The notes beneath the pieces were generated by a model. The model was not told the DNA's origin. It did not search any database and saw nothing but the letters and a program-made list of their open reading frames with translations. Below, in pieces: positions 12,185-38,565 of a stretch of DNA of 64,000 bases. Position numbers and translations under genes: made by a program. Numbering within the stretch: the first letter of the stretch is position 1; each line of letters opens with the position of its first letter. Origin of the DNA: Hysterangium stoloniferum (taxonomy: Eukaryota > Basidiomycota > Agaricomycetes > Hysterangiales > Hysterangiaceae); assembly GCA_015178975.1 (NCBI GenBank), contig WHVD01000193.1:62001-126000 (forward strand), written 5' to 3'.

Positions 12185-13600
12185 ACCCCTATAAACCATT
12201 TTACATTCCCCCTACCACCACAGATCACCGGAAGGTTCTTGGAAGGTATATACCTAGCGAAGGTTTCGGCAAAGGTCAGCAGGTTGATATAGTGCATCTG
12301 TCACACCAAGATTATTAAATTGCACATTAATCTGAGCTGGATTGGCCGGCTTGTCAAGTAGCAAGGCTTTTGACCAACTCGAAGGCGCCAAAAGTTTACT
12401 GGCACAGCCCTGAATAATTATGCAAAAAATTAGATTAGTGTAAAAGCCGTTTGTGCGAGATGCTACTTTCCGAATCAAAGTTGGAGTCAAGCCAATAAAA
12501 AATACCCTCAAACCCTCCCTGCGGTAGGAACATCGGACGATTGACAGGATATTATCGTATGGATTAGTTGACGATCTTTCTTTCGCCTGAATACGTGTCT
12601 TCACCACACCGAACCCAAAAGTAGTTACCCATCCAACTACGCCCGCGATACCCCGGCTGTAATCCTGGCCGACTTACCACACATGCAGAGCCGCATCATT
12701 GACCACTGGCCACCCCTGGCCGACTTACCAATTGCCCGTGTCACTGAGTCCCAACCCGATATTGGGCTCGATCAACACCATTCCCCTAGTGACACATACG
12801 CCTGGTGGAACCGGATCAGGATCTCGAATCTCTTCTCATCTCCTTGACTCTATATAAAACCCCATATCCTATAGCGATAGAATATCATCTCCTTGACCAT
12901 TAATCCTTTCCCCACTCTTCCCTAGGGAACCTCGCATTCACCTTGTATCCTACTGATATGTAAAAATAAAGAAAACTTAGTCCTGTCCGTGTTGACCGAG
13001 TGAGGCTGATACCGACAGCCTTACACCGGCCGCCATAAGACGGGGCCAAGAAAGTTGTTGTTGAAGTTCATCACCCACGTCAGGATATAGAGAAAGATGC
13101 GGATACGGCGAAGGAGATGGCCTTAGGAGCCTACAGCACCCTTCATACTTTAAATCGCTCACCGGTGAGAACGGTGACCTTTACGTCGAAAAGACTAACT
13201 CGCCGTTGCAAAATATGCACCATATCCAAGATGGCGAAGGGCCCGTGATGGTCATTCCACGGTAAAGGCCTTGTATTCCATGTTTTTTCTGAAGATATCT
13301 AATGCAACTCGACTTGCAGTGAGTCGCGAATTAATGTGCGCCTGCTGCAAGATCGGTTGGACATGTGATCAGGCTAGGTAAAAAATAAATAATGCCCCCA
13401 ATAATTTGAGAAACTCACGAAGCAACAATGCCACTACCAGCACCTGCCAAGGTTATTTGTGCTATTGCGGGCTCTTGTGATTCTTGCTCTAGCTGCAACT
13501 TCATAAGATAGCCATAGCTCGAGAAGGCTATTCAAAAAAACGCATAACTCGCCTTGAAGTTAATTGATTCAATGGCAAGATTTATTTGAGCATTATACGT
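12185..13600 (-). pseudogene. Mitochondrial carrier fragment (duplicated)
   Basis: Partial copy of the carrier gene at 31.2-32.5 kb, keeping introns, so it arose by DNA duplication and not by retroposition. It holds the third carrier repeat (FDVVKTRIQAKERSSTNPYD at the equivalent site, then REGLRVFFIGLTPTLIRK), a block homologous to DELQQQLSWPRLMAAG, and part of the second repeat. The first repeat and the start are missing: similarity ends at about 13597, inside the gene. A 368-base solo LTR interrupts it at 12658-13025. It cannot make a full carrier (normally six membrane helices). Confidence 0.8.
12658..13025. mobile_element. Solo LTR with 5-base target duplication
   Basis: A 368-base insertion absent from the paralogous carrier copy. 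It starts TGTAA, ends TTACA (inverted terminal bases) and is flanked by direct CCGGC repeats (12653-12657 and 13026-13030). The empty site at about 31545-31560 has CCGGC once. Inside are a TATA-like tctatataaaacc near 12850 and an aaataaa-type signal near 12964, in LTR-like order on the plus strand. No internal element remains, so it is a solo LTR. The family is undetermined. Confidence 0.85.
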
Positions 13601-13884
13601 ATCTTCATAATCGAACCCCCCTGACTCATGGTGATCTGAAAAGGTTCGCAACTTTGTCTTCACTACTTTAGGTGGAATTTTTTTCAATTATGAGCAGTGC
13701 AAATATTCTTGCAATGAATTCGGGACTGTCATTCTCGCAGACTTTGGTGGTCTGTCTAGGATTAGCATTGAAGCGACGATTTCGATGTTGCATGGCTCAG
13801 GATCCCGGGTGAAATAGAATCCGGACCACTAAAGACAACCAATGTTATGGTTATGGACACATTATGCTTGAAGTTCGTTTCAGA
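13601..13884 (+). pseudogene. Protein kinase gene fragment (duplicated)
   Basis: About 280 bases matching 35711-36032 of the tandem kinase gene: the end of the exon around the catalytic loop, the intron, and the DFG/APE exon (ILAMNSG.., DFGGLSRISIEATISML). It carries small deletions relative to the parent, including around the APE region, and has neither the start nor the end of a gene. It is joined directly to the carrier fragment on the left and to unit B on the right. It has no coding capacity as a kinase. Confidence 0.8.
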
Positions 13885-14609
13885 TTTTCCTCGATCCTCG
13901 ATCGCGCATTAATGTGCGCATCGTCTCAACTAGAGTGACCGGATCCGGGCGAAGAAAAGAATACTTACATGGGAATTTTTTTTTTAAAAAAGACTCTCAA
14001 TAATAGGAGCTTACCCGTTATCGATACGTCTGAGCCAATAAACGCGTTAAGTCCTGGATATATTCAGGACTTGGAACAAGTATTAGTGCTGGTATCGCAA
14101 TCGGAATCATAGGTACCTGAATGGCTCGACTTGTTCTTTTAAAATTAGATCGTTTTATTTTTGCGCAATTGTCAAATGTTGGCGTACTATGATGACCCCT
14201 GTCATGAGGATTGATTAGCGGAACCTAGTGAAAGTGCACACTACAACCAGGCTCATGAATTCAGGCAATTCACGTATATAACAGCCCCAAGATAGATTTG
14301 AATAAACGGCTCTCTGCGGTCATGTACGATTGATTAATTACCAGATGAATAACCAGACTCACTCTATATGCATGTACATAGTAGCTTCCAAGGACACATC
14401 GACTCTGCGAGCAGGATTGTGACCCATGGCAGTTAACAAGATCTCCCATACAAAACCCGGATTCCTCAAGCGAAGGTTAGGCTTTGTTTAGGCGTATCCT
14501 CTATAAGGAAGTTTCCGTTGCATGCTTTATTATTATTTAATCCATACACGCTTTAAAACGAAAGAATAAGATTAGAACCTACATAGCCGTATTAATTTAA
14601 TTGCTCAGG

Positions 14610-14616
14610 TATAAAA
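14610..14616 (+). promoter_or_regulatory. TATA box, secreted gene copy B
   Basis: tataaaa 68 bases before the ATG at 14678, at the same position and in the same context as in copy A. Confidence 0.55.
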
Positions 14617-14677
14617 TCAGCTCAGTCGGTTCAAAATCCGACAGACAAGAGATATCACTCTTACCACCATTAAGACG

Positions 14678-15177
14678 ATGAAATCGTTTTTCTCTGTACT
14701 GGCGCTCTTGAGTATTCTGGCTGTGGTGTCTGCCGCCCCTCTTGAGCCAGCGGCGGTAGAGTCGCCGGTGCCGGCGGCGCGGGGGTTGGCGGAAATAGCA
14801 GCCAGGAAGGAAAAGGAGGGGCTGGGGGGAACGTTGGGAAAGGAGGGGCTGGGGGAAGCGCTAGGGAAGGGGGGGCTGGCAGCGGCGTTGGGGAAGGGAG
14901 GCCTGGGGGGGACGGTGGGGGCAGGGGGGTTGAACGGGATGGTGGGGAAGGTGGTGGGGGATGGGGGACTGACAGGGGAGGTGTGGGGGAAGGCGGACAA
15001 GCCGGGACTGCTGAGGGGAAGAAAGGGAAGGGGAAGAAGGGGAAAAAAGGGAAGAAGTCGCGGGACTTCATAGAGTTGGCGCAGCCGGCCATCGCGACGC
15101 CTGAAAACGCGAGGGAGTTGATGGATGACGCTGAAGGATTCGTCGGGTCCCACCCGCCTGTCTACAGGAGGCTCTAG
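14678..15177 (+). CDS. Small secreted Gly/Lys-rich protein, copy B
   Basis: Signal peptide MKSFFSVLALLSILAVVSA with cleavage likely after VSA, then LEPAAVESPVPAARGLAEIA and an imperfect GLGGTLGKEG/GLAAALGKGG decapeptide-like repeat for about 60 residues. In the ATG frame the protein ends at 15073 in an Arg/Lys/Gly-rich tail. The neighbouring frame, from about 15000, carries the conserved tail shared with copy A (ELAQPAIATPENARELMDD ..PPVYRRL, stop at 15177). Either a small intron or a G/A-run indel separates the two. An intron with donor gtaagt at 15179 and an acceptor before atacttccgtgg could join a further exon with Cys residues. It is likely a secreted or wall-associated protein of unknown role. 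No family recognised. Confidence 0.5.
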
Positions 15178-16072
15178 TAAGTAAAAGTGATATTTTATAT
15201 TTCATATAATTGACAAGGTTGTCTTCTCAGATACTTCCGTGGATGGAAAATGTTACACGGAGTCGGTGCAACCAGGAGGACTTTGTCAGTAATAATAATT
15301 CTTTCGAACCGTACCTAATTTTCTATCTTAGGATAAGTACATCTGCACTGTTTTACGATCTCGAATTCTCTAGTCCCTCCACACTAACACCCACACCACC
15401 CATTGGACCGATATGATCATCTCTAATCATTGTCACTTTCATTAATGTTCCATCTTCTTCTCAGACTCAAAATACACCTGTTATATCTGCATGAATGTGA
15501 GGCTAGTGTCTGCCCCACGAAGCACGACCATGATTCTTGTGCAGACGAATGTTATTATAGTCACGAGAGTACATCGTCATCAGTAAGGCCATTGTTTCCG
15601 CAGATTTCTGTCCTTTAATATACCAGAGCGTCAGAGGGGACATCACAGAACCTTCATTTTTAGTTCAAGCATCATATGTAAACAATCCACGGTTTCTACT
15701 CTTTCCATTCAGACCAACTTCAATGCCCCACATTCATCGACTCTGATGGGCGCCTAGATGACTACTGCTCTGGTCGATCCGCTCACTATAAAACAAGATA
15801 TTATAATTAATGGTCGACAGAGAAAGAACGTGCGCCCATAGTGCCTGCATGCGTCCCAGCAGGATATTATATAGACAGCAGGGTTATGCGTTCATGTATA
15901 CAATCATGTTCAATCCCCGACCACTATTGAGCATAAATCAGTTTAAATAAACAGTGAATAATTTATAAAGCATTCTTGTCCTAACTATGTAATGATGTCA
16001 CTATTCACGAAATGAGGATCCATGAGGTACCAAGGCAAAAAAGGTCCCTTAGTCTCTTCTATCCAGGCTAAC

Positions 16073-16953
16073 TTCGGCTTTCGACACAACTTCATACATC
16101 TCTCGCAAGGCAAGTTCATGTCTTTGCAGTCAAGGGATCCCGACTTAAATGTTATTTTTCTACCAGGCGGGGTTTTCGCTTTTTCAAAGGCATTTAGAAA
16201 ACTATGCCCTTGTAGGATATCGTTAGGGGCATATGACAAAATGAGTAATGTGAGCAATTCTGGATTCCATACTTTATTAATTGCTTATTCTGTTCTACAG
16301 GTGTCATTATTTTTCGAGTGCTAGTGATATCCAGACTCGGACCAAGGACCCGCTTTTTGTCATCTAAACCGGATATGGTGGTTGATGCGCGATGCCTCGG
16401 CGTGCGTAGGCTCTTGATCACTACTAGGTACGATCTACATTGGCAATAACTGCAAAACACCATAATATCCTTTGTGAGTTTGCATGGATTTGCCGGCGCC
16501 TCAAAGATTTCAGATGCTTCCGACTGAACAGAGGCGTGTGCGTGGTGGCTCAACAAATTACTCTTTGTGAACACCGTATTAACTCAAGGGGGCATACATT
16601 TGGTTGTCCGGTGGCACTGCAACCATTATCTCAATGAAATGGCTTGGAAGCTTAAAAAAACAAGGGTTATTATGCTATCTCTCCTGATGAAAGCCCGTGC
16701 CCCCAGTGAGCGTTGACGCGGACAACACATCTTTTTTTGTGGAGCGTTTAGGTAACAGCCTGGCTGCCCTCTCGGGCCCTGCCATATGTGGACTAGCTCG
16801 TTCCAGGAAAATTAAGGGCGGACGAAAGGCCTAAACTATAAACATAGAGCATGGGGTACCCCGAAGAAATGGTGTTACGCACGCTGGCCGCGGGTAGCAA
16901 TGTGGGACTCAAGAAGATGAAGTCCTCACAGAAGCCCCCAGCCCCCCTACCCA
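16073..16953. other. Unassigned spacer before the Copia element
   Basis: About 880 bases with short open frames on both strands (for example 15985-16257 minus with a CERCMKLCRK cluster, and 16194-16574 minus). They do not join into a gene I recognise. It may be a decayed element or gene. The last 5 bases before the element (16954-16958, ctaca) are its target duplication. Confidence 0.35.
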
Positions 16954-16958
16954 CTACA

Positions 16959-17263
16959 TGTTAGAGTATGATATTACAGCTCTTACATAGTCTATGATGT
17001 TCCCTATATTTTTCTGATATTTGTAGTATTTTTCCCAGCACTGTAGGTGCAGTATTGAGTGAGTTACCTAGTAAGGTAACTGATGTGTAGGTGCTTAGGT
17101 AAGCACCCTGTAGTATACTCCGCTGTGGGTGTGGGAAAGTCTCCTTAGTGTTTACTTTCCTCACACTCACAGGTATGTAGTTATTTCACAGTTGAATACA
17201 TTAAGTGTTTACTTTCCTCACACTCACAGGGTGTTTGTCAAGAGTTATTCAACTGTTTCAACA
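16959..17263 (+). repeat. Copia 5' LTR
   Basis: 305-base LTR with TGTT...AACA ends. It contains an internal direct repeat of tgtttactttcctcacactcacag (two copies, about 17150-17173 and 17207-17229). It matches the 3' LTR throughout as far as can be seen. Confidence 0.95.
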
Positions 17264-17865
17264 GGTTATGGGCCCCGGCTTCTAAACCGGTACATCCAGT
17301 TGTCATCTGCGCAATCCATCACTTTGCACATCTTTTCTGACAACTTCTACTTGTCCAAAACACTCTACATTGCGTTTGGATTTTATTTTGGTTATATCTC
17401 CTTGGATTTTGGCCTGATTTGGTCGCTTTTTGGACTCACATCTCACACCTGTGATTGTGCGCATTTTTCGCCCATTTAGGCGCCCGTGTCCATAAAAGGA
17501 AATATATTCCCACGCTCCAAATCGCTTGTCGTCGCTCAAGTTCCCTTTTTTTGGGCAACTTCATTTTTATCACCCTTGTGACTCACCCTGTCACACCCTG
17601 TCACCTCTCTCTCCAGTCACACTCTTCCCTCACACCTCAAGCACTTCACAGTATCATCTGGGTCTGTGCCACGTCATTTTCCCTTTTTAACACGGTCTTT
17701 TAGATACATTGAACTTGAACTGTTGGCATTGTGCTCTTCAGTGGGCCTTTGTTTTTACCTTCCTTGCAATATCACGGTAACCCTGTTGAGCAAGGTGGTG
17801 TTACAACTGCGAGTCCAATTACTTAGTTCTTTTTAAGTTAAATTCTTGGTGGATATTGATGTGTC

Positions 17866-20800
17866 ATGGCATCCAGTGATACTTACAAACGTAGTGTCAT
17901 ATTGGGAGAGAATAATTATGAGGATTGGAGACATGACGTAATTGGTCTTTTGCGTATGGAGAACTGTCTCTCTATTGCCACTGGCAAAGAAAAACAACCT
18001 AGTGAGACTAGTTTACAGTCTGCCTGGTTGGAGCACTCCAATAAAGCAGCTGGTATCATATGGCGCTCTCTTGGACCTACACAGCGCACCCATGTTGACA
18101 TTGATGATGGTCCTGATGATATGTGGTCTAAAATTGACAAGGCACATAATAAACAACTCCCTGCAGTTCGTTTTAGTGCCTACAATGACCTCTTTAATAT
18201 TCGGAAGGAACCTGATGAATCTCTAACTTCATTAATGAGTCGTGTTGACAAGGTTTGTGCACGTGTCCAGAACTTGCGTCCAAAGGGGTACACTCTTGCC
18301 ATGCTGGATGATGAGCTTGCTGCTCTCACTTTACTTCGTTCTCTGCCTGAATCTGACTCTGTGTGGACTTCATCTTTAATGATGAATACTGCTATCACAT
18401 TCTCTGATGTCAAAACTCACTTTGCATCACAAGAGAGTTTGCAGTCTGCCAGAAATTTAGAGACGGCGAACAAAATTGTGTCAAAGACTTCCAACACTTC
18501 TGGTAAAGTTTCTTGCACATTCTGCAATGGTTCCACCCACACCCAAGACAATTGTTACGAGTATGCAAATGCACAGAAACAGGCAAAGGCCAAAGTTGAG
18601 CAGAAGAAAAAGGAGTATAAAGAAAGAAAGACTGCTAAGGCTGACAAAGCTAATGCGTCTGACAAGGTATCAGAGGAGAAGAAACCAGAGAGTGCTGGAA
18701 ATGCAAGTGTTTCTATCCCTGACTCTACCGATCCATCTTGTGCTCTCCTTGTCAATGCTAGTTCTGACTGGACTGCTGACACAGGTGCTTCTTCGCACAT
18801 GACTCCCCATCGTCATTGGTTTTCAAGTTATACCCCGTTTCAAACACCTATCCAAGTTGCAAATGGACAAATAGTTATGTCTGCAGGGATAGGAGCAGTG
18901 CGGTTTAAGCCTAAAGGGAATGGAAATGTAATAATAGAGTTTGAAAGGGTTCTCCATGTTCCCCATCTCACAAGTAACCTCCTCTCCATCTTGTATTTGA
19001 CAAAGAGAAAGAATTTCTGTGTCTCTATCTTTCATTCCACCATGTCTTTCTATTTGAGAAAGGTCTTGCGTTTCACTGCCACAGTCAATGAACATAACCA
19101 GGCCTATTTGGATGGAATGACGGTACCTATGACGGATTATGCAGGTCTTGTTACAACCTGTCCCTTGGACTCCACACTTTGGCATCGTCGCTTTAATCAT
19201 CTCAATCATGCCGATATCCAGAAGCTCCTCAAAGGTGATTTGGTTGGTGGGATAAAGATTGACTCTCACACGTCTCCTGATCCTATTTGTGAACCTTGTT
19301 TGGCTGGAAAACAGAACAGAGTGATTAATAAAATAGCAACAACACGCTATACTAAACCACTTGCACTCATTCACAGTGATGTTCATGGTCCCTTGCCTAC
19401 ACAAACTGTGGAAGGGTTTCGCTACTGGATCACTTTCATTGATGATGCCTCACGCTATGCTTCGATTGCATTACTCAAAAATAAGAGTGATGCCTTTCAG
19501 GCATTTAAGCAATATAAGGCTAAAGTGGAGAACTTGCTTGGTCAGAAGATCAAGATATTCAGAGATGACAAGGGTGGAGAATATATGTCTAAGGAGTTTG
19601 ATACCTTCCTTTCCACTGCTGGCATCAGCCGGCAGCATACTGTGCGGAATGAACCACATCAGAATGGGGTTGCTGAACGCTTCAACAGAACATTGGAAGA
19701 AGGGGCTACTTCAATTATGGCTGAATCCCACCTCCCTCCCTCATTCTGGGGACATGCTGTCATTGCCATTACTCATGTGCGCAACTGCTCACCTACCACT
19801 GCTCTTAAGCATTCTGTGCCTTATACTGTCTGGCATAGTAGGAAACCAGAAGTATCACATCTTAGGGTATTTGGCTGTACTGCTTATGTGCATGTACAGA
19901 AGGATCAACGTATTGGACTTGGCTCTCATACACAGAAATGTGTCTTTATTGGATATCCTCCAGATTATAAGGGTTGGATGTTTTACAATCCCTTGACTAA
20001 GAAGACTATTATCAGTAATAATGCTGTCTTTGATGAGAGAGTCTTACCAGGCTTGTCTAAACCTGCCATACCTTCTACTCCTACTGCTCCTGATGTTCTT
20101 CCTGATACTCCACAATTTATTGATTTGTTTATTCCTGGACCCTCTAGGTCTATTCAGGTGGGAGCCCAGCCTAATCAGATGGGAGCTCCACAGGAACCAA
20201 ATCCAGTGGGAGATGGTCAGAATAATGCTTTGCCTCCTGGTCCTAGTTCCAACTCTGATTCTAATTCTGAACATTCTGAACGTTCACCGAGTCCTCCTCC
20301 TCAACCACGTCGCAATCCACCCAGAAACAGAGTTCCTCCTAAGCGTTTCTGGCAAGTTGACCCTGCTCACATCCACAATTATAGAGAATCTACTCCTGTA
20401 GTTGAGTCCAGTGATGAGGCAGAGGATTCTCCACTACATTCTCCTCCTCCAGTTGAGTCTGAGGAAGAAGCCCTAGCTGCCAGTGAGGGAGATCTTTACA
20501 TTGGTGTGGATGAAGCCTTTGAGTTTGCCTACAAGGCCAGTGCTCATGATGATGCACCGAGAACTCTCAAAGAGGCCTTACAAAGTCCTGATGCTGACAA
20601 GTGGTATGACGCTGCATATGCAGAAATGCAATCCCTGCTTGAAAATGGCACTTTTCGCCTTGCTAAACTACCTGAGGGTCGTAAAGCTATTGGCTCTCGT
20701 TGGGTGTTTGTGATCAAGCGTAAGAAGGATGGGTCAATTGACAAGTTCAAAGCTCGTCTTGTTGCAAAAGGCTATGCACAACGACCAGGGTTTGACTTCA

Positions 20801-22023
20801 CTGATACCTTTGCTCCTACTGCCAAATGGGCCACTTTGCGTGCTGTCCTAGCATTGGCTGCACTGGAGGACATGGAACTTGAGAGTGTAGATATCTCCTC
20901 TGCATTCTTGAATGGTGAACTTGAAGAGGAAGTATACTTGCAGCAGCCTGAAGGTTTTCACCAAGGTGCTCGTGATGAGTTCTTACTTCTTCTGAAAGGA
21001 CTATATGGTTTACGCCAGTCACCTCGTATCTGGCACAAGAAGTTGAATGCTGTCCTGCTCAGTTTGGGTTTCAAACAGGTGCTATGCGATCATAGCATTT
21101 GGGTCTTCCAAAAGGGTGATGTCAAAGTCATTATACCAGTATTTGTAGATGACATGACTATTGCATCTAAATCCAAGGAGGCTATCAAAAAGCTCAAAGA
21201 TGATCTAAAGAGCCACTTCAAATTGCATGATCTTGGTCCTACTTCTTACTTGTTAGGTGTTGGCATTGAAAGAGACAGGACAAAGCATACTATTACTCTA
21301 TCACAGCGTCAATACATCTTGGACATGTTACAGCGTTATGGTCTTGCTGACTGCAATCCCATTGGTACACCTATGATACCTAACTCAAAATTGAGTAAAG
21401 ACCAGGCTCCAGTGTCTCCTGAAGAGATTGCATACATGAAGGACATTCCATACATCCATGCTGTTGGTTCTCTTATGTATTTGGCTGTTGCCACTCGTCC
21501 AGACATTGCCTATACTGTTGGAGTATTAGCCAGATTTAATCACAATCCAGGAAAGGCTCATTGGCTAGCAGTACAACATCTCTTTCGATATCTCAAAGGC
21601 ACCCTTGACTTGGGCTTGACCTTTGGCCCTAGTAATGACAGGGAATTGTTTGTGTCTTATTCAGATGCTGACCATGGAGGTGATAAGTCAACTGGAAAAT
21701 CTACTGGGGCATATGTGGTTAAGATGGGTACTGGAGCCATTAGCTGGCAGAGCAAACTCCAGACTATTGTAACTCTCTCTACTACTGAAGCAGAGTATAT
21801 TGCAGCAGTGTCAGCTGGTCAGGAAGTGCTATGGTTGCGAAACTTATTTGAGGAATTGGGATATCCTCAAAAGACTGCATCCACTTTGTATCTTGACAAC
21901 CAATCTTCTATTGCAGTTGCCAGAGATCCTGAACATCATGGCTGTTACGACCGTGTCGTAACCCATGTCGCAACCCGATGGTCTCCGAGAATACTACAGT
22001 CTATCGATGTTTCGAGTTATTGA
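17866..22023 (+). CDS. Copia gag-pol reading frame (fossil, interrupted)
   Basis: Polyprotein frame of the Copia element. In order by DNA position: gag (about 17866-18480), zinc knuckle CX2CX4HX4C (about 18513-18560), aspartic protease with DTGASSHM (about 18775), integrase with HHCC and DDE regions (about 19190-19800), Ser/Pro-rich linker, reverse transcriptase with FVDDM (about 20640-21400), RNase H with SYSDADHGG (from about 21655). The element's own coding stops at 21942, where the Gypsy-type element enters. The last ~80 bases of the open frame (to 22023) are sequence of the inserted LTR. The gag, protease, integrase, RT, RNase H order is diagnostic of Copia/Pseudoviridae. Confidence 0.95.
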   Translation: MASSDTYKRSVILGENNYEDWRHDVIGLLRMENCLSIATGKEKQPSETSLQSAWLEHSNKAAGIIWRSLGPTQRTHVDIDDGPDDMWSKIDKAHNKQLPAVRFSAYNDLFNIRKEPDESLTSLMSRVDKVCARVQNLRPKGYTLAMLDDELAALTLLRSLPESDSVWTSSLMMNTAITFSDVKTHFASQESLQSARNLETANKIVSKTSNTSGKVSCTFCNGSTHTQDNCYEYANAQKQAKAKVEQKKKEYKERKTAKADKANASDKVSEEKKPESAGNASVSIPDSTDPSCALLVNASSDWTADTGASSHMTPHRHWFSSYTPFQTPIQVANGQIVMSAGIGAVRFKPKGNGNVIIEFERVLHVPHLTSNLLSILYLTKRKNFCVSIFHSTMSFYLRKVLRFTATVNEHNQAYLDGMTVPMTDYAGLVTTCPLDSTLWHRRFNHLNHADIQKLLKGDLVGGIKIDSHTSPDPICEPCLAGKQNRVINKIATTRYTKPLALIHSDVHGPLPTQTVEGFRYWITFIDDASRYASIALLKNKSDAFQAFKQYKAKVENLLGQKIKIFRDDKGGEYMSKEFDTFLSTAGISRQHTVRNEPHQNGVAERFNRTLEEGATSIMAESHLPPSFWGHAVIAITHVRNCSPTTALKHSVPYTVWHSRKPEVSHLRVFGCTAYVHVQKDQRIGLGSHTQKCVFIGYPPDYKGWMFYNPLTKKTIISNNAVFDERVLPGLSKPAIPSTPTAPDVLPDTPQFIDLFIPGPSRSIQVGAQPNQMGAPQEPNPVGDGQNNALPPGPSSNSDSNSEHSERSPSPPPQPRRNPPRNRVPPKRFWQVDPAHIHNYRESTPVVESSDEAEDSPLHSPPPVESEEEALAASEGDLYIGVDEAFEFAYKASAHDDAPRTLKEALQSPDADKWYDAAYAEMQSLLENGTFRLAKLPEGRKAIGSRWVFVIKRKKDGSIDKFKARLVAKGYAQRPGFDFTDTFAPTAKWATLRAVLALAALEDMELESVDISSAFLNGELEEEVYLQQPEGFHQGARDEFLLLLKGLYGLRQSPRIWHKKLNAVLLSLGFKQVLCDHSIWVFQKGDVKVIIPVFVDDMTIASKSKEAIKKLKDDLKSHFKLHDLGPTSYLLGVGIERDRTKHTITLSQRQYILDMLQRYGLADCNPIGTPMIPNSKLSKDQAPVSPEEIAYMKDIPYIHAVGSLMYLAVATRPDIAYTVGVLARFNHNPGKAHWLAVQHLFRYLKGTLDLGLTFGPSNDRELFVSYSDADHGGDKSTGKSTGAYVVKMGTGAISWQSKLQTIVTLSTTEAEYIAAVSAGQEVLWLRNLFEELGYPQKTASTLYLDNQSSIAVARDPEHHGCYDRVVTHVATRWSPRILQSIDVSSY

Positions 22024-24078
22024 TCAAGTCATCATTTCGGCAACCTTCGGAATACCGACACTGACGTATACCTTCACGGCGATCAAACCTCGTTTACGCC
22101 CCTGTCAAAATATACTCTACCATCTGGTTATGCTTTGATACGTCCCCTTTCATTATGATGATCCCTTTTACTCTATGTTTCACATATGCCCATATATACT
22201 TGTAGCCCATGGACTATTCCCTTTTCTCGTAATTCCGCTCTCGGCTAAATCTCGGCTTCCGATCTTATCGTAACTTTCCGGTTCCTAGTCAAGCTTATTT
22301 GTCAATGCCGTTTTCCGCTCTTCCCTTAGTTAGTAGTTTCTAGACGCCGATAACCCATATATAAACCCGCTGTAATGTAACTACTAGACAATCAGAATAT
22401 TGACTTAGATACCCTGTGATGTATCTAGTATATATTCACGAATTTTCCCTTAATTTTCCAGAATTTATTTCAATTTATTTTATTCTATTTTATTTTATTT
22501 ATTAATTCAAGAATTAGGCTATTTTCCTTTTAACTTCGAATACTCAAGGCTTCGAATGACATCATATTATGTAATCGAAGCCTAGAGCGGTCGAAATATA
22601 AGTATAATAAAGCCGGGTTATCTGATTTCGAGAGACCGGGTTTTTATTATATTATATTAGTACATATATGCGCATTATTATCGCGCGATCACGTGACATC
22701 ACGTGACGACGACGTCACAACGTGTTTACAATTCGTCGCGAGTAGTTTTCGCAGCCGCCGGCCGCGTTTATTTCCGTTTCGGCGCCACGGCTTATTTTGC
22801 TTCCACCCTCGGCCATCTCGGGTTTATTCTCTGACTCGACCGGTTCGGATCTTCGGTTCGGATCTTCGAGTCGGGTGATAGCTATGACATCATAGCGGAA
22901 TTATAGAAACTTTTAGAAGCTTCTAATAATTTCCTAATTAGTTATTTAGCTATTATTAAGCAATAATCTCTACATGTATAAAAGGAGGCCTAAATCACTG
23001 AATAAAAAACAACAACTTTATTACTATCAACAGCACCAGCTCAAAGCTTATCTAATCATCCTAAGGACAAAAATAGCCTTAGTCTGATATCTAACTGCAA
23101 GCACCTACACTTGCAGCATCTTGAACTCTTTCTCTTGAACTTAGCTAATTCATCTAAGTTCCCTCAGCTTCCCGGAAAACCTTTAGGCTTACTAATCACT
23201 TAAGTAAATCTAAATTCTCATTACTGAAATCCCTGCCCGTTTAGGTTATTCAAGAGCCCATTTTAACAGCACAGTTAATCGATCTTTAAACAAACGCTTG
23301 GATATTCGACTCTCGGACAATCTCTCTATTTATAAATTATTTAACAGCTTGTTAAATCCTTATAAATAGTAAACTAAAAGGCTACAAGAAAGCGAAGGCT
23401 TACGACAAGTTTCCGCCAACTTATTGCGCATACATTCAGCTCCCGAACCTTTATTCTCAAAGAGAACTTAACTTTCGTAGAGCACGTCACTACAAGTTCA
23501 TCTGAATTTGTCAAGAGACCAAACAAATATTGACTTTAGTTGTTTAAGCTTAATAGCGCAGCTAATTAATCTATCAGTATTTAAATTACTGGACCTTTAT
23601 TTGTTTATTTCTTGAATCCCTTGCCGTGTCAACGCTTGTTAATTATTTGAGAGAGTAAATAGCCGGATACCTTACATACCCTCTAATTTTCCGACTCCAT
23701 TATCTATTCACGACCACCACATTCCGACTCCATCCGATTTACGATTCAACCTACATTTACGACTTCAACCTCTAATCTCCGACTCTCAGTCTCCGACTGT
23801 CTCAGTCTCTGACTGTCTCGGTCTCCGACTGTCTCAGTCTCTGACTCTCTCAGCCTCCGACTCTTGGTCTCCGACCCCTCAACCCAACCCTCAACTTATC
23901 CTTCGGTTTCCGATCGGTAGTTTACCGAGAGGTTTACTTGACAGGACTAGTTTTCGCCCGCCCGAAATTTAAGGACACCTGATGGTAACTTGCGAGGGCG
24001 CAGCACATAAGCTGAAGCCAAGTCCTTCCGTTCGGTCCCTGTCGGCCAGCCGACATCTGTCAGTTTCTGCTCTTAACA
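21943..24078 (+). repeat. Gypsy-type 5' LTR with nested insertion
   Basis: It matches the 3' LTR (28487-29309) at both ends with only a few substitutions. The middle is interrupted at 22415-23676 by another LTR-like insertion. A cluster of ctccgactgtctcagtctctga repeats near 23790-23860 has more units here than in the 3' LTR. Confidence 0.9.
22415..23676 (+). mobile_element. Nested solo LTR (third level)
   Basis: 1,262 bases present in the 5' but not in the 3' LTR of the Gypsy-type element. It starts TGTGATGTAT, ends CCTTACA and is flanked by TACCC duplications (22410-22414 and 23677-23681); the 3' LTR has the empty site near 28960. tataaaagg at about 22977 and aataaaaaac at about 23001 look like an LTR promoter and a polyadenylation signal on the plus strand. 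It encodes no protein, so it is read as a solo LTR of another LTR family. A non-coding LTR-like element of another kind is also possible. Confidence 0.82.
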
Positions 24079-26250
24079 GTATATTCTGATTTCTACTCGC
24101 AAACCCGTCCTTATATCTATTCATTTGTTCATCACTCCACATCAGCATCGCATTACTTATCTTTTACAGAACCCTTTTGTGTTTTCAGACTTCACTCTGA
24201 TTTCCAGATGCAAAGATAAGTTAATGGCCAAAGCTGATCCTGTTTTACTCAGATTCCACTCGTTTTGCCCTGCTTCGATCCTTGTTTTGTCCTGCCCCTG
24301 GTTTGCTCGGCTCCCGATTATTTCCGGATATTCCGAATGGACTAATTTACCACTAGTCACCATACTATCGGAATCCGTCGGCCTCCGGAAATATGCTTTG
24401 CCTGTCATTTACCTTGATGGTATATTATGGATTCAAGTTCGCAATGTGTTGGCCACCTAGTGCTTGGTTTTCTTTACAGATATACCTTCCTAAACCATTG
24501 CTCATAACTCCAAATCGACATCGCCTTGCTTACCCTTGTTCTTTGCCTCGCCTTCGGACCTTTTTCGGGTCCCGACCCCTTTTCCGAACTTTTGTTTGGA
24601 CCCTTTTCCGACCTACCCTTTGGTCCATGCTGTCCCATGCATGTTCCTTGCTTTGTCACTACCTTCCGACCCATTCTCCAACTATTCTCCAACTATTCGG
24701 ATTCCTCTCAACCTCTGCATTGATTCCTACAATGACTCTCCAGACTTTCCGGTTTTTTCGGCAGGTCGGACTCCGAGTCAGGAAGATTTTATGCAGTACC
24801 CATCTCTCATCGGCTTTTGCAACCTGGATACATTCCAAACTGCAATACGCTTTCCGGTTCCCTTCTGGGACATTTTCTGGCTCTTTTCAGTTTCTCTGAG
24901 GAGCATTTACCTGTTTCCCTTGTGGAACAAATCTGGACGTCACCCCTTTGACTAGCAGTATGAGTTGCTTGATTATTTCTAGGATACCACTGTCTCACCC
25001 ACTATAATCCGTTGATTTCCGGGTATTGAGCAGTAAATTTTCCGAAACTTCCGATGCCTCTCATTTGACTGTATTGGTCTGCTCTGAATATTTTCAGACA
25101 TCTCTGGCCTTCGGGCAACCCTTTGCCTTTCTGGGCATTTCTGGCCTTTTGGTACCTCTGGTTCCTTTTGGCATGTTCTACTCTTTCAGTCAACTTTGGA
25201 TTCTTCGGATTCCTTGGATTTCCGGACTTTCCGGAATCTTCGGACCCTTTGGATTTCAATTACCTGTTGAGTATATGCTCGTGAAGATCAGTTTAATCTG
25301 GCATTTCAGGCATCTCTGGCCTTCGGGCACCCATGGCCCTTCTGGGCCTAGCCTTTTCGGCATCTCTGGTCTTTTGGCTTACCACTCTCTCACTTAAACT
25401 CGGATTCCATGGTTATTTCCGAACTTTCCGGAACCCTCGGAACTTTTGGATTCTTCGGACTTCCGGACTTTCCGGAATTTCCAGACCCTTTGGATCCTAC
25501 TTATTTGTTGAGTGATTGTTTGCTGAGATCAGTTAATCCAGCCTTTCAGGCACTTTTGGCCTTCGGGCAACCCTCAGCCCTTTTCTCGGGCACCCCTGGC
25601 CTCTTTTGGCACTCTTGGCCTTCGGGCAACCCTCGGCCCTTTTTGGGCACCTCAAGCCTTTTGGCATATTTGGCCTTTTAGGCATTTATGGCTGTTTTCG
25701 GCATGTTCAACACTTTCACTTAACTTCGGATTCCTCAGATTTCCGGACTTTCTGGAATCCTTGGACCTTTCCGTTCCCAATTATCTGTTGAGTGTTTGCT
25801 TGCCAAAAATCAGTTTAATCCAGCCTTTTCAGGCAAACTTTGGCCTTCGGGCAATCCTAGCCTTTTGGATCCCTGGCCTCTCTTCCGGCCTTTTCAGCCC
25901 TTTTGTCCGACTTCAAATTCTGTGAATTTTCCGACCTCTGGAAACCTCGGACTTTCCAAAACCTTTGGATTTTCCGAATTTCTTGGACTTTCCGAAATCC
26001 TCAAATTTTCGGGAACCCTCGGACTTTCCAGAAACCTTGGACTCTCCAAATTTTAACTCTTTGTTGAGTTTTCCTTTTTGCCATGATTGTTTTTATCTCG
26101 GCTTTTTAGCATATATGGCCTTTTGCGCCATTTCCAACACTTTTAGCATACTTGGTCTTTTGGCACCAATGTTTCGACTCAATTTCAGATTTCCGGATTT
26201 TTCCGACCTCTCCGAACTTTTGGAAACTTCGGATTCCGAAAATGCCATCA
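24079..26250 (+). repeat. Repetitive leader of the Gypsy-type element
   Basis: Internal region built of drifting copies of motifs like ccttcgggcaaccc, ttttggcatctctggcc and ttccggactttccgga, spaced irregularly from about 24540 to 26250 and again near 27940-28400. It gives Phe/Gly/Ser/Leu-rich frames without any known domain. It probably grew by slippage or repeated template switching in a defective element. Confidence 0.6.
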
Positions 26251-26279
26251 CCTGGCCCTTCTCCGAATACCCTTCTGCC

Positions 26280-27800
26280 TTCAATATGGTCATCCGCTTC
26301 TGTCCCGGCCACCTTGGTGGAAAACCTGACGCTATGACTAGACGATGGGACGTCTATCCTAAAGAGGGGAGTAGCGACTACGCCACAGTTAATCTGGATA
26401 ATTTCAAGCCTATGTTTTCATCCGAACAACTGTCCGAGTTAATCCAAGCTACTTACCTTATACATCCAGTCATGCGCAGTGTTATCCTTAAGCACACCTC
26501 AATAACCCGTCCAACCCCGATCATTCCCGATGGTCACTCAACCCGCAAGGTTTCATTAAACTTGACAATTGCATATATGTTCTGGACTCCGACACTCTCC
26601 GACTTCGAGTTTTACAGCATAAACATGACCACCAGATCTCGGGACATTTCAGTATCAATTTACCATTGGACTTATCCGAAGAGAAAATACATGGCCCGGT
26701 CTCCGAGATTTTGTCAAGCATTATTGTAAATCATGCACCAACTGTGCACGTTCCAAATCAAGACGTCACAAACCATATGGCCTACTCAAACAATACCGGA
26801 AAAACCCTGGAATTCAATATCAATGGATTTCATCGAACACCTACCGGCATCCAACGGCCATACCGCAATTCTCGTTGTTGTGGATTGGCTTACCAAGCAA
26901 AGTATTTTCATTCCAACTTATGATACAGTAACATCCATACAGTTGGCCGAATTGTTCAACACTCATGTATTCTCCAAGCATGGCATTTCCGTTGCATGTC
27001 ACTTCCGATTGCGGATCCGAGTTCATCTCTCACTTTTTTAGGTCACTCGGAAAAGCACTTGACATGAAACTCCATTTCACTTCCGGCTACACCCGGAAAG
27101 TGATGGCCAAACCAAACGCATTAATCAAACACTGGAACAGTACATCCAAGTCTATTGCAACTATCAACAAGACAATTGGAAATCACTTCTACCGCTTGCC
27201 GAATTCACATATAACAACACCCCAAATGCTACTACCGGCATTTCGCCTTTCTTCGCAAATAAAGGCTACAACCCAAATATCGCTATCCATCTGGAACGCG
27301 ATCTCACTTCAACCCGTGCTCAGGACTTTGTCACAAACCTCAATGAGCTACACCAAGAACTTCGAAAGAACATCACATCGGCCCATGAACATTACCAACA
27401 CTCCACAGACAAAAATCGGCTGCCGCCCCCTGAACTCAAGATCGGTGACCGAGTATTTGTCAAAACCGAGTTCTTCCAAAAGCCGAGTTCTTCCGAATGA
27501 CTAGGCCATCCAAAAAGCTCGCCAATAAGTACTTAGGACCTTTTTGAAATTATAGCACAAGCAGGCACGCTCTCTTGAATGTTTCAGCTCCCCGAGAATA
27601 TGCGTGCAGTACACCTAGTACAACCTCCGCCTCCACCTGTGGTTATTAACGGGGAACCCGAATTCGAGGTATCGGAAATCCTAGATTCAAAGATGGATAA
27701 TCACCGACGTACCTGCAAACTACTCTATTTGTCAAGTGAACAGGTTACAAAGGTACCGATGAATAAGCATCCTGGATTCTTGCCACAGAACTCGGAAATG
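26280..27800 (+). pseudogene. Gypsy pol remains: RNase H, integrase, chromodomain
   Basis: Fossil coding remains in several frames. They hold the end of an RNase H region, an integrase zinc-binding region, a catalytic-core block (SISMDFIEHLPAS.. and VVDWLTKQ), and a C-terminal chromodomain-like block (EFEVSEILDSK). The order is that of chromovirus pol. It is broken in many places. Confidence 0.8.
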
Positions 27801-28486
27801 CATCGGACATCGTCAAAGATTTCCATCAAGCATATCCAAACACATCCGGACCCCTATAACTTACAGCATCCCGACATTTTTCCGACACCCATAGTTTTGT
27901 ATCCTGTCTCTTTTCCTTCGCTTCCTCCTCAGCCCTCTCAGTGGCTGCCAGCAACTTGGCATTCCCTGTTGCCCTCAGTTCACACTCCGGCCCCTCATGG
28001 GCAATTTCCGGTCCATTCGGACATCTTCCGGCCTTTCCGGCACCTTTTCTGTCCTACTGGTTAGCGTTTATTCTCACACTGCCTTGCACCCTCTGCATTT
28101 TGGCATCTTTGGACTTTCGTCACCCCTGTCTCCCACATTTTCAGTGTGCTCGGATTTCTCGGAACTTCCGGACTCTGTCCTGGACCTTTTCGGACTTTCA
28201 GACCTTATTGGATTTTCGGAATTTTTAGGTTTCCGGACCTTTTCGAGGTTTGAACTTACATTCAAGTATCCAAATATGACCATGGCCTCGTCCTGACCTT
28301 CATCTCGATCTTGACTTTCCAAATCCTCTCCGAATCCTTTCTGAATCCTTTCCAAACCTTTCCGAACCTTTTCCGAACCCTTTCCAGCACCTTGCCAAAT
28401 CCCATCTCTTTCCGACCTTCCTGCTTTCATCTTATTCTTCAGCACTTTTTCGGCCTCCTTGGGATTTCGGCCAAATGGGGGGATAC

Positions 28487-29309
28487 TGTTACGACCGTGT
28501 CGTAACCCATGTCGCAACCCGATGGTCTCCGAGAATACTACAGTCTATCGATGTTTCGAGTTATTGATCAAGTCATCATTTCGGCAACCTTCGGAATACC
28601 GACACTGACGTATACCTTCACGGCGATCAAACCTCGTTTACGCCCCTGTCAAAATATACTCTACCATCTGGTTATGCTTTGATACGTCCCCTTTCATTAT
28701 GATGATCCCTTTTACTCTATGTTTCACATATGCCCATATATACTTGTAGCCCATGGACTATTCCCTTTTCTCGTAATTCCGCTCTCGGCTAAATCTCGGC
28801 TTCCGATCTTATCGTAACTTTCCGGTTCCTAGTCAAGCTTATTTGTCAATGCCGTTTTCCGCTCTTCCCTTAGTTAGTAGTTTCTAGACGCCGATAACCC
28901 ATATATAAACCCGCTGTAATGTAACTACTAGACAATCAGAATATTGACTTAGATACCCTCTAATTTTCCGACTCCATTATCTATTCACGACCACCACATT
29001 CCGACTCCATCCGATTTACGATTCAACCTACATTTACGACTTCAACCTCTAATCTCCGACTGTCTCAGTCTCTGACTCTCTCAGCCTCCGACTCTTGGTC
29101 TCCGACCCCTCAACCCAACCCTCAACTTATCCTTCGGTTTCCGATCGGTAGTTTACCGAGAGGTTTACTTGACAGGACTAGTTTTCGCCCGCCCGAAATT
29201 TAAGGACACCTGACGGTAACTTGCGAGGGCGCAGCACATAAGCTGAAGCCAAGTCCTTCCGTTCGGTCCCTGTCGGCCAGCTGACATCTGTCAGTTTCTG
29301 CTCTTAACA
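28487..29309 (+). repeat. Gypsy-type 3' LTR
   Basis: 823-base LTR, TGTTA...TAACA, uninterrupted. It differs from the matching parts of the 5' LTR at only a few bases (for example near 29213 and 29282), so insertion was recent. Confidence 0.92.
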
Positions 29310-29503
29310 ATGGCCGTATGAAGCATCTGGATTTGAGAACATATTGGTTAAGGCAGGAAGTTGATAGTGGGAAGATCAAAGTTGTTCATCTCCCTACTTC
29401 AGAGATGCCTGCTGATTTATTGACAAAACCATTGGCTAAGCCAAAGGTAGAATACTTACGAAAACTACTGGGACTAGCATAGAGCTGTCTCATCAGGTGG
29501 GAG

Positions 29504-29808
29504 TGTTAGAGTATGATATTACAGCTCTTACATAGTCTATGATGTTCCCTATATTTTTCTGATATTTGTAGTATTTTTCCCAGCACTGTAGGTGCAGTAT
29601 TGAGTGAGTTACCTAGTAAGGTAACTGATGTGTAGGTGCTTAGGTAAGCACCCTGTAGTATACTCCGCTGTGGGTGTGGGAAAGTCTCCTTAGTGTTTAC
29701 TTTCCTCACACTCACAGGTATGTAGTTATTTCACAGTTGAATACATTAAGTGTTTACTTTCCTCACACTCACAGGGTGTTTGTCAAGAGTTATTCAACTG
29801 TTTCAACA
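29504..29808 (+). repeat. Copia 3' LTR
   Basis: 305-base LTR followed by the target duplication ctaca at 29809-29813. It appears identical to the 5' LTR. Confidence 0.95.
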
Positions 29809-29813
29809 CTACA

Positions 29814-30960
29814 ACCAAAGAAACGTCACTCAAGAGCAAACCACAAATGTTCTCACGTGAAGTAGCCCCTCCACCACATGTCGCCTTAGCTAGACACCGA
29901 AGTGTGGCTTTCCTTCAATGCCTCGGCGGTGTCGATAGTATAGCCATGTGCATCCTATTACTTAGTTTTTTCACCCATCTTTTCTCGGCGTCTCCCTTTA
30001 TTCCCAAATGAGGTGGGCTGGTTTGTACGCCAATATTCCAAGCTGCCCGAGGCCGGTTGCCCATCTATCAGGTTTCATCCTCTCATTTTGGTAAGCTGTG
30101 AGGATACCCTATAATCATTCCAATACGTTCGTCGGGCCTGGTGCGCCCAGTCTTGCACCAAGCCTTCTTTATGAGTTCCCATGCCTTCCTCCGTTCAGAT
30201 CCCTCACGCTCTGTACATGCTGCATGCTCTCTTAGTATGCAGTTGTATTTGGGCCCTCAGCTCCTTGTTCATAAACCTGGTGTATTTAGCCATCACTTCC
30301 CCATCCTGTAGGAGTCATTGGCCGCGCACCAAGGAAATTCATGACATTTCCGCTAGTGTACTTGTTTCCCAATAGACGGCCATATTATTTTGTCTGAAGG
30401 TACATGTCCTACCCAGTGATTCACAACAAATTTGGTTCGTTCCAGCATATGCTCGGAGGTTTTCTTCTCCTGCATCCCCCTTTCAGGGTTGTATACTAGA
30501 AGCGACCGGTTGGCTGTTGGCAGCGGGATGCCTGTATTCGGGGGTTGTGAAATTTAGTAGGCTTCGCATTGTCTTCTGTCCCTTACCCACTTCACGGTCA
30601 GCCCCCTTCATTTCTTCTAAGCCCACTGCGCCCTTTTGCTTCCGATTAGGCGTTCTCACCCTTCTGCATTTTCAGAAGTTCTTTGTTCGAACAACCGACC
30701 AACCCACAAATTCTCGTGCTTCGCCAGGTCTATCGTCAACGAATCAACATATTGTGAATCAGAGCATATATGCTGGTCCATTTCTAGTGGAGATGACTGC
30801 ACAAGCAGCAGACCTGTAGCCATTTCCCTTACCTCAGACAACACAGTCGACTGGACGTGTACTCTTTCTTTACTTGTCCCCCCATTGGCACTTAAAAGAT
30901 ATCTTACCCATAGTGGCTTGATCCAGAGTTACAATTTAGTATCAAATGGGGAGCCAGCTA
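29814..30960 (-). pseudogene. Degenerate RNase H-like transposon fragment
   Basis: The minus strand at about 30656-30844 reads CSDSQYVDSLTIDLAKHEN and WVGRLFEQRT, resembling the RNase H1 domain found in fungal non-LTR elements (SDSKYVIDGLTKHL..WENRGW). The flanks to 29850 show only short broken frames in the same direction. The class is uncertain (LINE is most likely). It is an old, broken fragment. Confidence 0.35.
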
Positions 30961-30962
30961 GG

Positions 30963-31081
30963 CAGCATACTCCTATAAACAGCATACTCCTATAAACAGC
31001 ATACTCCTATAAACAGCATACTCCTATAAACAGCATACTCCTATAAACAGCATACTCCTATAAACAGCATACTCCTATAAA
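30963..31081 (+). repeat. 17-base minisatellite, 7 copies
   Basis: Seven perfect tandem copies of cagcatactcctataaa. They end against ccattttacattcccc, which also follows a single cctataaa at 12189 in the duplicated carrier fragment. The repeat therefore grew at this copy after the duplication, or shrank in the other. Confidence 0.95.
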
Positions 31082-31239
31082 CCATTTTACATTCCCCCTA
31101 CCACCACAGATGACCGGAAGGTTCTTCGAAGGTATATACCTAGTGAAGGTTTCGGCAAAGCTCAGTGGGTTGACATATTGCATCTGTCACACCAAGATTA
31201 TTAAATTGCGCATTAATCTGAGCTGGATTGGCCGGCCTG

Positions 31240-32522
31240 TCAAGTAGCAAGGCTTTTGACCAACTCGAACGCGCCAAAAGTAACCATATTTACTGGAACA
31301 GCCCTGAATAATTATGCAAAAAATTAGATTAGTGTACAGGCCGTTTGTGTGAGATGCCACTTTCCGAATCAAAGTTGGAGTCAAGCCAATAAAAAATACC
31401 CTCAAACCCTCCCTGCGGTAGGAACATCGGACGGTTGACAGGATATTATCGTATGGATTAGTTGACGATCTTTCTTTCGCCTGAATACGTGTCTTCACCA
31501 CATCGAACCCAAAAGTAGCTGCCCATCCAACTACGCCCGCGATTCCACCGGCTGCCATAAGACGAGGCCAAGAAAGTTGTTGTTGAAGTTCATCACCCAC
31601 GTCAGGATATAGAGAAGGATGCGGATACGGCGAAGGAGATGGCCTTAGGAGCCTACAGCACCCTTCATACTTTAAATCGCTCACCGGTAAGAACGTTGAC
31701 CTTTACGTCAAAAAGACTAACTCGCCGTTGCAAAATATGCACCATATCCAAGATCGCGGAGCGCCGTGATAGTCATTCCACGATAAAGGCCTTGTATTCC
31801 ATGTTTTCTGAAGATATCTAATGCAACTCGACTTGCGGTGGGTCGCGAATTAATGAGCGCCTGCTGCCGGATTTTCACAAGATCGGTTGGACATGTGATC
31901 AGGCTAGGTAAAAATTAAATAATGCCCCCAATAATTTGAGACACTCACGAGGCAACAATGCCACTACCAGCACCTGCCAAGGTTATTTGTGCTATTGTGG
32001 GCTCTTGTGATTCTTGCCCTAGCTGCAACTTCATAAGATAGCCATAGCTCGAGAAAATAAGGCCGTTTAAAAAGGCATAACTCGCCTGGAAGTTAATTGA
32101 TTCAATAGCAGACTTTATTTGAGCATTATCATTGAACATACCATAGGCGACATGATGCCCTTATAAAGCCCTGGCAATCGCTCATCGTGTAGAATCTTCG
32201 CAATTGTGCTAAATGTACCCAACCTATGGTATATGGTAGTTGTTGCTGGGTCCTGAAATCGAACTTTGACGGTGTCCAGTGGGAATCCCACAATCAGACC
32301 CACAATTCCTGTTATAACGGAAGGGGGAATGAGCTACGGGGCAACATCCATCGAAAACTGCCGAATTGACCTCCCACTGTACCTGCAACGAAGTCTACTG
32401 TGGGATCTAACGCACTGGCTGATATCAGCCAAAGTCAGCCGTTTACGAACACATACGGCGATTCCAAGGAACATACTATTATCTCCGACGGGTCGCGGAT
32501 CTTCCAAGGCTGCAGTGGTCAT
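31240..32522 (-). CDS. Mitochondrial carrier family (SLC25) protein
   Basis: Inner-membrane metabolite carrier with three repeats; the substrate is not determined. The start is ATG at 32522 (MTTAALEDPRPVGDN). After the first intron: DPTVDFVAGTVGG, then VGFPLDTVKVRFQ (signature 1). SLITCPTDLVKIRQQALIN (signature 2) comes next, followed by YRGMTITALRDLGYGAYF. The last repeat has TFGFDVVKTRIQ (signature 3, with the usual Pro replaced by Phe) and GLTPTLIRK. The final exon frame with PVNMVTFGAFELVKS ends at 31240. To reach it, an intron with donor GAAAGT in place of GTAAGT would be needed. Splicing from the GT three bases on gives another C-terminus that ends at 31187. About 300 residues, as usual for the family. 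Possibly impaired by the donor change. Confidence 0.78.
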
Positions 32523-33400
32523 AATATCATGAAGATAATATCCTAGGATAGCGCTATGCGGGTGTCAAGCCGATATCTACCGTGGCTTGTACAAGGATGG
32601 GGTGGGCTCATTTCCCCAGCCAACGCATTGCCGATCGATCTGCGTGACTGGCGCACCAACTCAAAATTCGGACCTCCGACCTGACCAACATGGAGTCAAA
32701 TCATCACAGAACTCATGCCCACTCGGGTTCCTTGAGTGTTCGATAGGGAAGGCGTGTAGAATCTTGGCACTCATATACATCATGAAATAAAAGTTCAAAA
32801 ATTGGAGTTAGAATACATTAGCCACGTTGTTTTGTACGATCCGGGCCATTCAACAAAGTGTGTCCCGCTGAAGATGCAAGCATCTTTTCACCTCGAATGA
32901 CACCACCAATGAAAATTTGAACGAGTCACTATCAACTTAGTTAAGATGTAATCCTGATGCATGGAGGGAGGATTACTACGCGTCAGACACGTGACATGAT
33001 AATTGAGCTTAGAAATTGAATGTCCGCCTTCGTAACATACTGCAACGAAGATATCCTGTCTATACGGAATTGAGTGAGGCTGCCAAATACGACACCTTGT
33101 TTTAAAATCAGCAATCAGCAAATTATACAGATTATTACAAGATCACCTAGTAATTTCTTTATTACTGCAAGGAAATCAAGTTTTGTTTTGTATATCATAA
33201 CGAGCAAAAAAATGGAAATTAAATTATATAATCCCCCTACTATAGGGTGATAATTAAAAGCGTGATGGCTTTGGGAGGGCGACCATGATTTGTATGAGCC
33301 CCAGCAACCTAGCATGAAAGTTTTTTGTCCATTTCCTTAATATCGGACATCTAGGACTGTTTTTGCCGGATTGATTTGGGTACTGCTTCCACCAGAGAAC
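32523..33400. other. Spacer with carrier promoter
   Basis: About 880 bases upstream of the carrier. Short open frames on both strands do not join into a known gene. From about 33110 it is AT-rich. No further feature was recognised. Confidence 0.35.
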
Positions 33401-33662
33401 GCCCCAAATCTTAAAACTCAAAGGATCCTTAGTGTGATATTACAATATTAAACTTGCCAATCACGTGGTAAATCCTTGGCATTGGTTAAGGATCAAAAAG
33501 CTTACTAGGGTTTATGGATCCTCAACCGATTTAACTCGGTTGGAGATCTAAAGGTTTAGGGTCCATGAATCCTTGAACTCGGTTTAGGATCCGACTGGTG
33601 ATTGGCAGGTTTTATATCACACAGTTTCCATAAAGGACCCTTTGAGATTTTGGATCCGGGGC
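33401..33662. mobile_element. Foldback / MITE-like palindromic element
   Basis: The two ends are inverted: gccccaaatcttaaaactca at the left against tgagattttggatccggggc at the right. Similarity continues for about 85 bases per arm (gtgatatta.. / ..atatcacac, cttgccaatcac / gtgattggcagg). The centre has a further hairpin (caaccgatttaactcggttg). Many ggatcc-like sites recur. No coding capacity. No certain target duplication was found, so it is either an old non-autonomous DNA element or a foldback repeat. Confidence 0.6.

Positions 33663-38533: not shown

Positions 38534-38565
<32 letters not shown>

Follow-up and report, generated by a model that had tools for sequence, protein, structure and literature searches.

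A three-level nest of LTR retrotransposons in Hysterangium stoloniferum: insertion order, predicted priming modes and a CpG caveat on dating

Introduction

Nested long terminal repeat (LTR) retrotransposons, with elements inside elements and an order of insertion given by the nesting, are described in the accessible parts of reports on plants (PMC6911290, PMC7251063) and on Laccaria bicolor (PMC3411680). The same organization was found in the locus analyzed here, a 64,000-nucleotide stretch of the Hysterangium stoloniferum genome (assembly GCA_015178975.1, contig WHVD01000193.1, positions 62,001 to 126,000; hereafter the window). In this locus a Ty1/Copia element contains a middle element of the Ty3/Gypsy lineage, and the 5′ LTR of the middle element contains the solo LTR of a third element. 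Inner LTRs are sometimes more diverged than outer ones in nested systems (PMC7251063, accessible text), as was also observed here. According to PMC6911290, insertions into LTRs and coding regions are uncommon in plants, whereas here the Copia frame and the middle 5′ LTR each received one; this is a single case from another kingdom.

The individual elements also have described counterparts. For Tf1 of fission yeast, the primer is reported to be the initial 11 bases of the element's RNA (PMC7175516), and the same self-priming is proposed for Tj1 (PMC4600332), both as given in the accessible portions. Like Tf1/Tf2 and the self-primed group in these two reports, the middle element carries, just past its 5′ LTR, 11 nucleotides complementary to the predicted RNA start. 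Unlike Tf1/Tf2, it has no detectable reverse transcriptase and a minisatellite in its LTR, its RNA start is a prediction, and 2 nucleotides separate the LTR end from the complement. The fungal Copia elements in the accessible part of PMC5445492 are those of filamentous ascomycetes. In the outer element of the present nest, gag, integrase and reverse transcriptase share one frame, and the primer site fits the anticodon arm of a putative initiator tRNA, compared with a tRNA-Lys site in FunCo1 or a hairpin in GalEa (PMC5445492). No title or abstract beginning among those listed from the open-licence literature describes the nest itself.

Results

The window was located within a 145.8-kb contig (C105) of the genome searched (111 Mb, 554 contigs). 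Border comparison placed all three elements where a previous sequence-only reading had put them. The outer element spans 16959-29808, the middle element 21943-29309, and the third-level insert of 1262 bp splits the 5′ LTR of the middle element (Table 1). The Copia element and the third-level insert have TG..CA ends, and each level is enclosed by its own perfect target duplication. The order claimed for the insertions (Copia, middle, third) likewise held, as both the nesting and empty sites for the two inner insertions support it. The ATGGC site was read uninterrupted at all three covering loci (L001, L003, L005) among eight Copia LTR loci compared; the other five stop short. The TACCC site is single and uninterrupted in the 3′ LTR of the middle element, and the left 472 bp and right 397 bp of the split 5′ LTR align to this 3′ LTR on either side of the one TACCC. 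Given this match, chance is not an explanation for the third-level borders.

Table 1. Positions of the nest features in the window
Feature	Position	Strand	Remarks
Target duplication CTACA, left of Copia	16954-16958		border comparison
Copia 5′ LTR, 305 bp, one CpG	16959-17263	+	305/305 identical to 3′ LTR, TG..CA
Copia primer site, 14 nt	17264-17277	+	complement of anticodon arm of putative host initiator-Met tRNA genes
Copia gag-integrase-reverse transcriptase frame	17866-21942	+	1359 codons from first Met to border, no stop, cut by middle element
Target duplication ATGGC, left of middle element	21938-21942		border comparison
Middle 5′ LTR, left part	21943-22414	+	472/472 identical to 3′ LTR
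Predicted self-primer, 11 nt, in 5′ LTR	22390-22400	+	32 nt after start of TATATAA
Target duplication TACCC, left of solo LTR	22410-22414		border comparison
Solo LTR, chromovirus-like Ty3/Gypsy family, 1262 bp	22415-23676	+	TG..CA, TACCC both sides
Target duplication TACCC, right of solo LTR	23677-23681		border comparison
Middle 5′ LTR, right part with 16/32-bp minisatellite	23682-24078	+	two CpG C/T differences, 46 bp more than 3′ LTR
Middle interior, 4408 bp	24079-28486	+	longest plus-strand frame 267 amino acids
Predicted self-primer binding site	24081-24091	+	perfect complement of 22390-22400 and 28934-28944
Integrase remnant, two frames, two stops	26692-27275	+	tblastn E 1.7e-26 to C290 pol frame
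Purine-rich tract before 3′ LTR	28473-28486	+
Middle 3′ LTR, 823 bp	28487-29309	+	uninterrupted at TACCC site
Target duplication ATGGC, right of middle element	29310-29314		border comparison
Right remainder of Copia	29315-29503	+	last codons, stop at about 29480, purine tract
Copia 3′ LTR, 305 bp	29504-29808	+	identical to 5′ LTR
Target duplication CTACA, right of Copia	29809-29813		border comparison

The third level had been proposed to be a solo LTR, and its family agrees with this. At one locus (C290) two 1262-bp units lie in direct orientation around 7.6 kb. GCTAC borders the pair, and between the units a primer-like site follows the left one and a purine tract precedes the right one. Pfam searches of the C290 interior gave RVT_1, RT_RNaseH, H2C2, rve and SH3_Tf2-1 above the cutoffs, whereas the chromodomain (Chromo) scored 20.8 bits, below the cutoff of 25.1 (E 0.00036). 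Because this paired copy flanks a Gypsy pol, the 1262-bp unit is an LTR. Examination covered 38 of the 43 listed copies, leaving out one copy at a contig end and four C35 fragments. Solo was the usual state: 26 copies, the one in the window (L009) included, are single with exact 5-bp duplications, eight are joined to an interior, three have 4/5 matching bases and one has none. Two of the eight joined copies form the C290 pair, and the other six (L018-L020, L054, L065, L066) have the same interior ends as C290. L011 has the same flanks as L010, and L018-L020 share theirs. At the third level of the nest, a single LTR is thus enclosed by one target duplication, and C290 supplies the paired copy.

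In the outer element, the integrase domain (Pfam rve, residues 498-595) precedes RVT_2 (928-1172) in one polyprotein with the order gag, integrase, reverse transcriptase, which together with the paired TG..CA LTRs, the 5-bp duplication, the primer site and the purine tract identifies a Ty1/Copia element. Its LTRs are identical, as the earlier reading had suggested. The middle element was inserted between codons, close to the C-terminal end of the Copia frame and presumably in the RNase H region; the frame now reaches a stop 26 codons inside the insert. The first 14 nucleotides past the 5′ LTR are a perfect complement to a tRNA-like piece with a CAT anticodon that occurs at three genomic places, and none of 1000 control stretches gave a match above 9 nucleotides. 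In Drosophila, copia is primed by an internal part of the initiator tRNA. For the present element, an internal piece of initiator-Met tRNA is the probable primer of cDNA synthesis, the initiator tRNA genes being assigned only by the pattern of D-arm plus anticodon arm. A wider assignment of 19 GGGCYCATAACCC sites as tRNA genes was not borne out at the three loci checked; the longer tRNA-like pattern fits three places.

Among the best 40 of 590 candidate Copia LTR matches, a selection uninformative on old copies, 31 share the top score of the window LTR itself and nine lie one step lower; eight pairs are spaced at 5172 bp and one at 5186 bp. Solo Copia LTRs with exact duplications account for 8 of the 26 LTRs whose flanks were read (both window LTRs included; L006 was read by eye). 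In a further Copia copy (G000:C21:205356-215773; L092, L091) the LTRs are 10.1 kb apart, compared with 5.2 kb, with TATGG on both sides; this copy probably holds another nested insertion of about 4.9 kb.

For the middle element, alignment of 21943-24078 with 28487-29309 showed that the LTRs are not identical. They differ at 2 of 823 aligned bases (0.24%), both C/T at CpG, and by a 46-bp gap in the minisatellite. The copy number of this minisatellite (window 23776-23875) is highly variable in the family, with over twenty 32-bp steps at C1:819369-820110. At ten LTR loci of the middle family whose ends were read, eight LTRs are single with exact 5-bp duplications, one is a 5′ LTR and one a 3′ LTR; the left flank of one single LTR (L029) also resembles a purine tract. 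The label Gypsy-type, given earlier to the middle element, could be upheld in part. The pol frame of C290 detected a Gypsy-type integrase, degenerate in the window copy, in this copy and its relatives by tblastn, and Pfam recognized H2C2 plus rve in one open frame of 448 amino acids in the relative L035 and H2C2 in L040. A reverse transcriptase was not found, so the assignment depends on the integrase: the reverse transcriptase part of the C290 frames had no tblastn match to the middle element at E 1e-4. Pfam gave no match for five open frames of at least 153 amino acids tried from the middle element. When 28 stop-free fragments of the window copy and 13 of L035 were scanned (41 in all), the sole credible family to emerge was integrase, with two members for H2C2 and two for rve; two other families came near E 0.03. 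Rfam yielded no matches in the window at the gathering threshold.

When the L035 frame was compared with ten copies, only L035, the source of the query, matched without a stop or frame change. Across this 448-amino acid stretch, the window copy has two stops and changes frame three times, once at a deletion of ~60 bp that is private to it. The missing stretch is present in 9/9 relatives, including the C101 copy, and a deletion shared with C101 was therefore rejected. A wholly non-coding middle family was likewise rejected in view of the L035 integrase frame. At ~0.12% since insertion, less than one change is expected in the integrase stretch (calculated). Because the interior damage exceeds what the LTR divergence allows, most of it probably predates the insertion. 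The middle copy would thus have transposed already coding-dead, its RNA probably being moved in trans by proteins supplied from elsewhere. Elements termed LARD have paired LTRs around a long interior in which no gene is complete. The middle element is LARD-like in its LTR pair and long, gene-poor interior, but unlike a LARD it retains integrase homology, and in L035 its family retains coding capacity. It has more the appearance of a decayed relative than of a derivative devoid of genes.

A candidate priming signature was also found in the middle element. Bases 3-13 past its 5′ LTR perfectly complement LTR positions 448-458, and this 11-nucleotide complementarity is kept in 9/9 other copies of the family. 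None of 1000 random interior 30-mers reached 11 nucleotides and five reached 10, and the same test gave 5 nucleotides for Copia and 6 for the C290 element. In the predicted folds of two copies, an 11-bp helix closes the leader in both the minimum-energy and the centroid structures. From the TATA spacing only, the RNA of the family is predicted to start at LTR AATCAGAATAT. Together these features suggest that the RNA of the middle element is probably self-primed in the manner of Tf1.

The nesting fixes the order of the events, but the LTR divergence fixes no dates. The events had been called very recent, which stands in relative terms, the inner events being bounded by the outer one; no date follows from the Copia LTR, which at 305 bp and a single CpG is a weak clock. 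The absence of differences over this length is compatible with a divergence of up to about 1% (3/305, 95% limit, calculated). Nominally, the inner, younger LTRs have diverged more than the outer ones (2/823 plus the 46-bp repeat change versus 0/305). CpG content differs strongly between the LTRs, with 1 CpG in 305 bp for Copia (observed/expected 0.09), 51 in 823 bp for the middle element (1.29) and 58 in 1262 bp for the third (1.43). Outside CpG, neither the Copia nor the middle LTR pair shows a substitution. In the middle interior (window versus nine copies), C/T differences affected 424/2658 CpG columns (16%) versus 1.7-3.3% at CpA, CpC and CpT. The corresponding values were 9.0% versus 1.5-3.6% elsewhere in the third family (33 copies) and 5.1% versus 0.2-0.7% elsewhere in Copia interiors (five loci, four elements). 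This bias fits deamination of methylated CpG. Repeat-induced point mutation (RIP) at CpA was rejected as the main process, as there was no excess of CpA differences. For Tuber melanosporum, the accessible part of PMC4165359 reports CpG-preferring methylation without RIP, and CG to TG changes that are not significantly enriched. Since the LTRs differ in CpG content and CpG changes fastest, the younger pair is expected to have diverged more, and given the small numbers the reversal does not conflict with the nesting order. A reversal of this kind is given for 25% of 4126 nested pairs in plants in the available text of PMC7251063.

The surroundings of the nest are also repetitive. At 12658-13025 lies a fourth LTR-like insertion of 368 bp with TG..CA ends and the duplication CCGGC; at least 29 further near-full-length copies at 95-99% were found, plus partial ones, and a local paralogue near 31554 is without the insertion. 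Duplicated blocks flank the nest (a direct pair at 77%, 10073-12186/13883-16072, and matches at 80-94%, 12185-13881/31071-36032), and relatives at 64% occur just upstream in the contig (C105:53.6-57.2 kb). Two frames tried from these blocks had no Pfam match. A perfect tandem repeat (17 bp x 7.1) marks a block edge at 30963-31082. Farther out, the window contains a gene for ribosomal protein uS2 (37952-39010), whose best solved-structure matches are presumably fungal (Neurospora and Chaetomium) and would by themselves point to a filamentous ascomycete host, and on the minus strand an open frame of 981 amino acids (7069-10014) with no Pfam family above cutoff.

Discussion

The nest is real, correctly delimited and ordinary in kind, and we are highly confident that it arose by four successive ordinary events, three insertions followed by the formation of a solo LTR. 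A 5.5-kb Ty1/Copia element integrated with duplication of CTACA, its cDNA probably primed by the internal piece of initiator-Met tRNA. A cDNA of ~6.1 kb of the Ty3/Gypsy lineage then entered the Copia frame close to its 3′ end, duplicating ATGGC; its RNA was probably self-primed and already coding-dead, with proteins from elsewhere. A chromovirus-like Ty3/Gypsy element followed into the middle 5′ LTR, 14 nucleotides past the predicted self-primer, with duplication of TACCC. Recombination between its two LTRs, the standard route to solo LTRs in the accessible portion of PMC7175516, would finally have removed the interior.

Several results count against parts of this account. For the outer Copia insertion, no second allele or empty site was present in the assembly when the flanks 10073-16072 and 29814-36032, excluding 16073-16953, were searched; these flanks are single copy except for local paralogues and small repeats. 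ARAGORN predicted no tRNA in three 131-bp loci around the short anticodon-arm pattern, which are not the three places with the longer pattern. Taken whole, the leader folds of the middle element did not exceed shuffled sequences in stability (z -0.86 and -1.01; 20 and 16 of 100 shuffles as stable). No reverse transcriptase was found among the 41 fragments from the window copy and L035, and the superfamily of the middle element is therefore read from integrase remnants.

It is very improbable that separate repeat copies were joined or collapsed during assembly. All three families are repetitive, 31 of the best 40 LTR matches equal the Copia LTR, and contigs carrying same-flank copies (L010/L011, L018-L020) indicate some redundancy. 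However, mis-joins would not yield six borders with three perfect and different duplications, the window sits within a 145.8-kb contig, and the match between the interrupted LTR and its partner holds right up to the base of insertion. We give next to no credence to the 1262-bp unit as a complete short element, whether of the TRIM kind or a DNA element bearing short inverted repeats at its ends. Its ends do form imperfect inverted repeats (9/12) and the majority of the examined copies are single, but the direct pair at C290, which encloses 7.6 kb with a Gypsy pol and has one duplication outside, contradicts this reading, as do the purine tract and primer-like site there and the six further ends joined to the same interior.

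Gene conversion could have preserved the LTR identity, so that the events would be older and the middle element would have decayed in place. The broken interior between nearly identical LTRs is what such a history would leave, and conversion has been argued for plant LTR pairs (PMC7251063, accessible text). We nevertheless consider it unlikely: the middle LTRs still differ by the 46-bp repeat change and two substitutions, and two LTR pairs, Copia and middle, would have had to undergo conversion. Beyond the succession of four events, the middle element might represent a self-primed Ty3/Gypsy family without reverse transcriptase that spreads via the enzymes of another family, and Copia might thrive alongside it partly because its nearly CpG-free LTR gives CpG methylation little target. 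This combined picture is conceivable but doubtful.

Nested LTR elements are common, and the nest as such is an example of common genome wreckage rather than a discovery. The present analysis adds predictions of how the outer and middle elements are primed, the reading of the middle copy as probably coding-dead, and a warning that CpG changes affect dating. As an example the nest is useful: its six borders are clean, it offers two priming signatures that can be tested, and its inner LTRs are nominally more diverged than its outer ones. This reversal, explained by CpG content, calls for caution when LTR identity is used to date nested elements in fungi with mutation at CpG.

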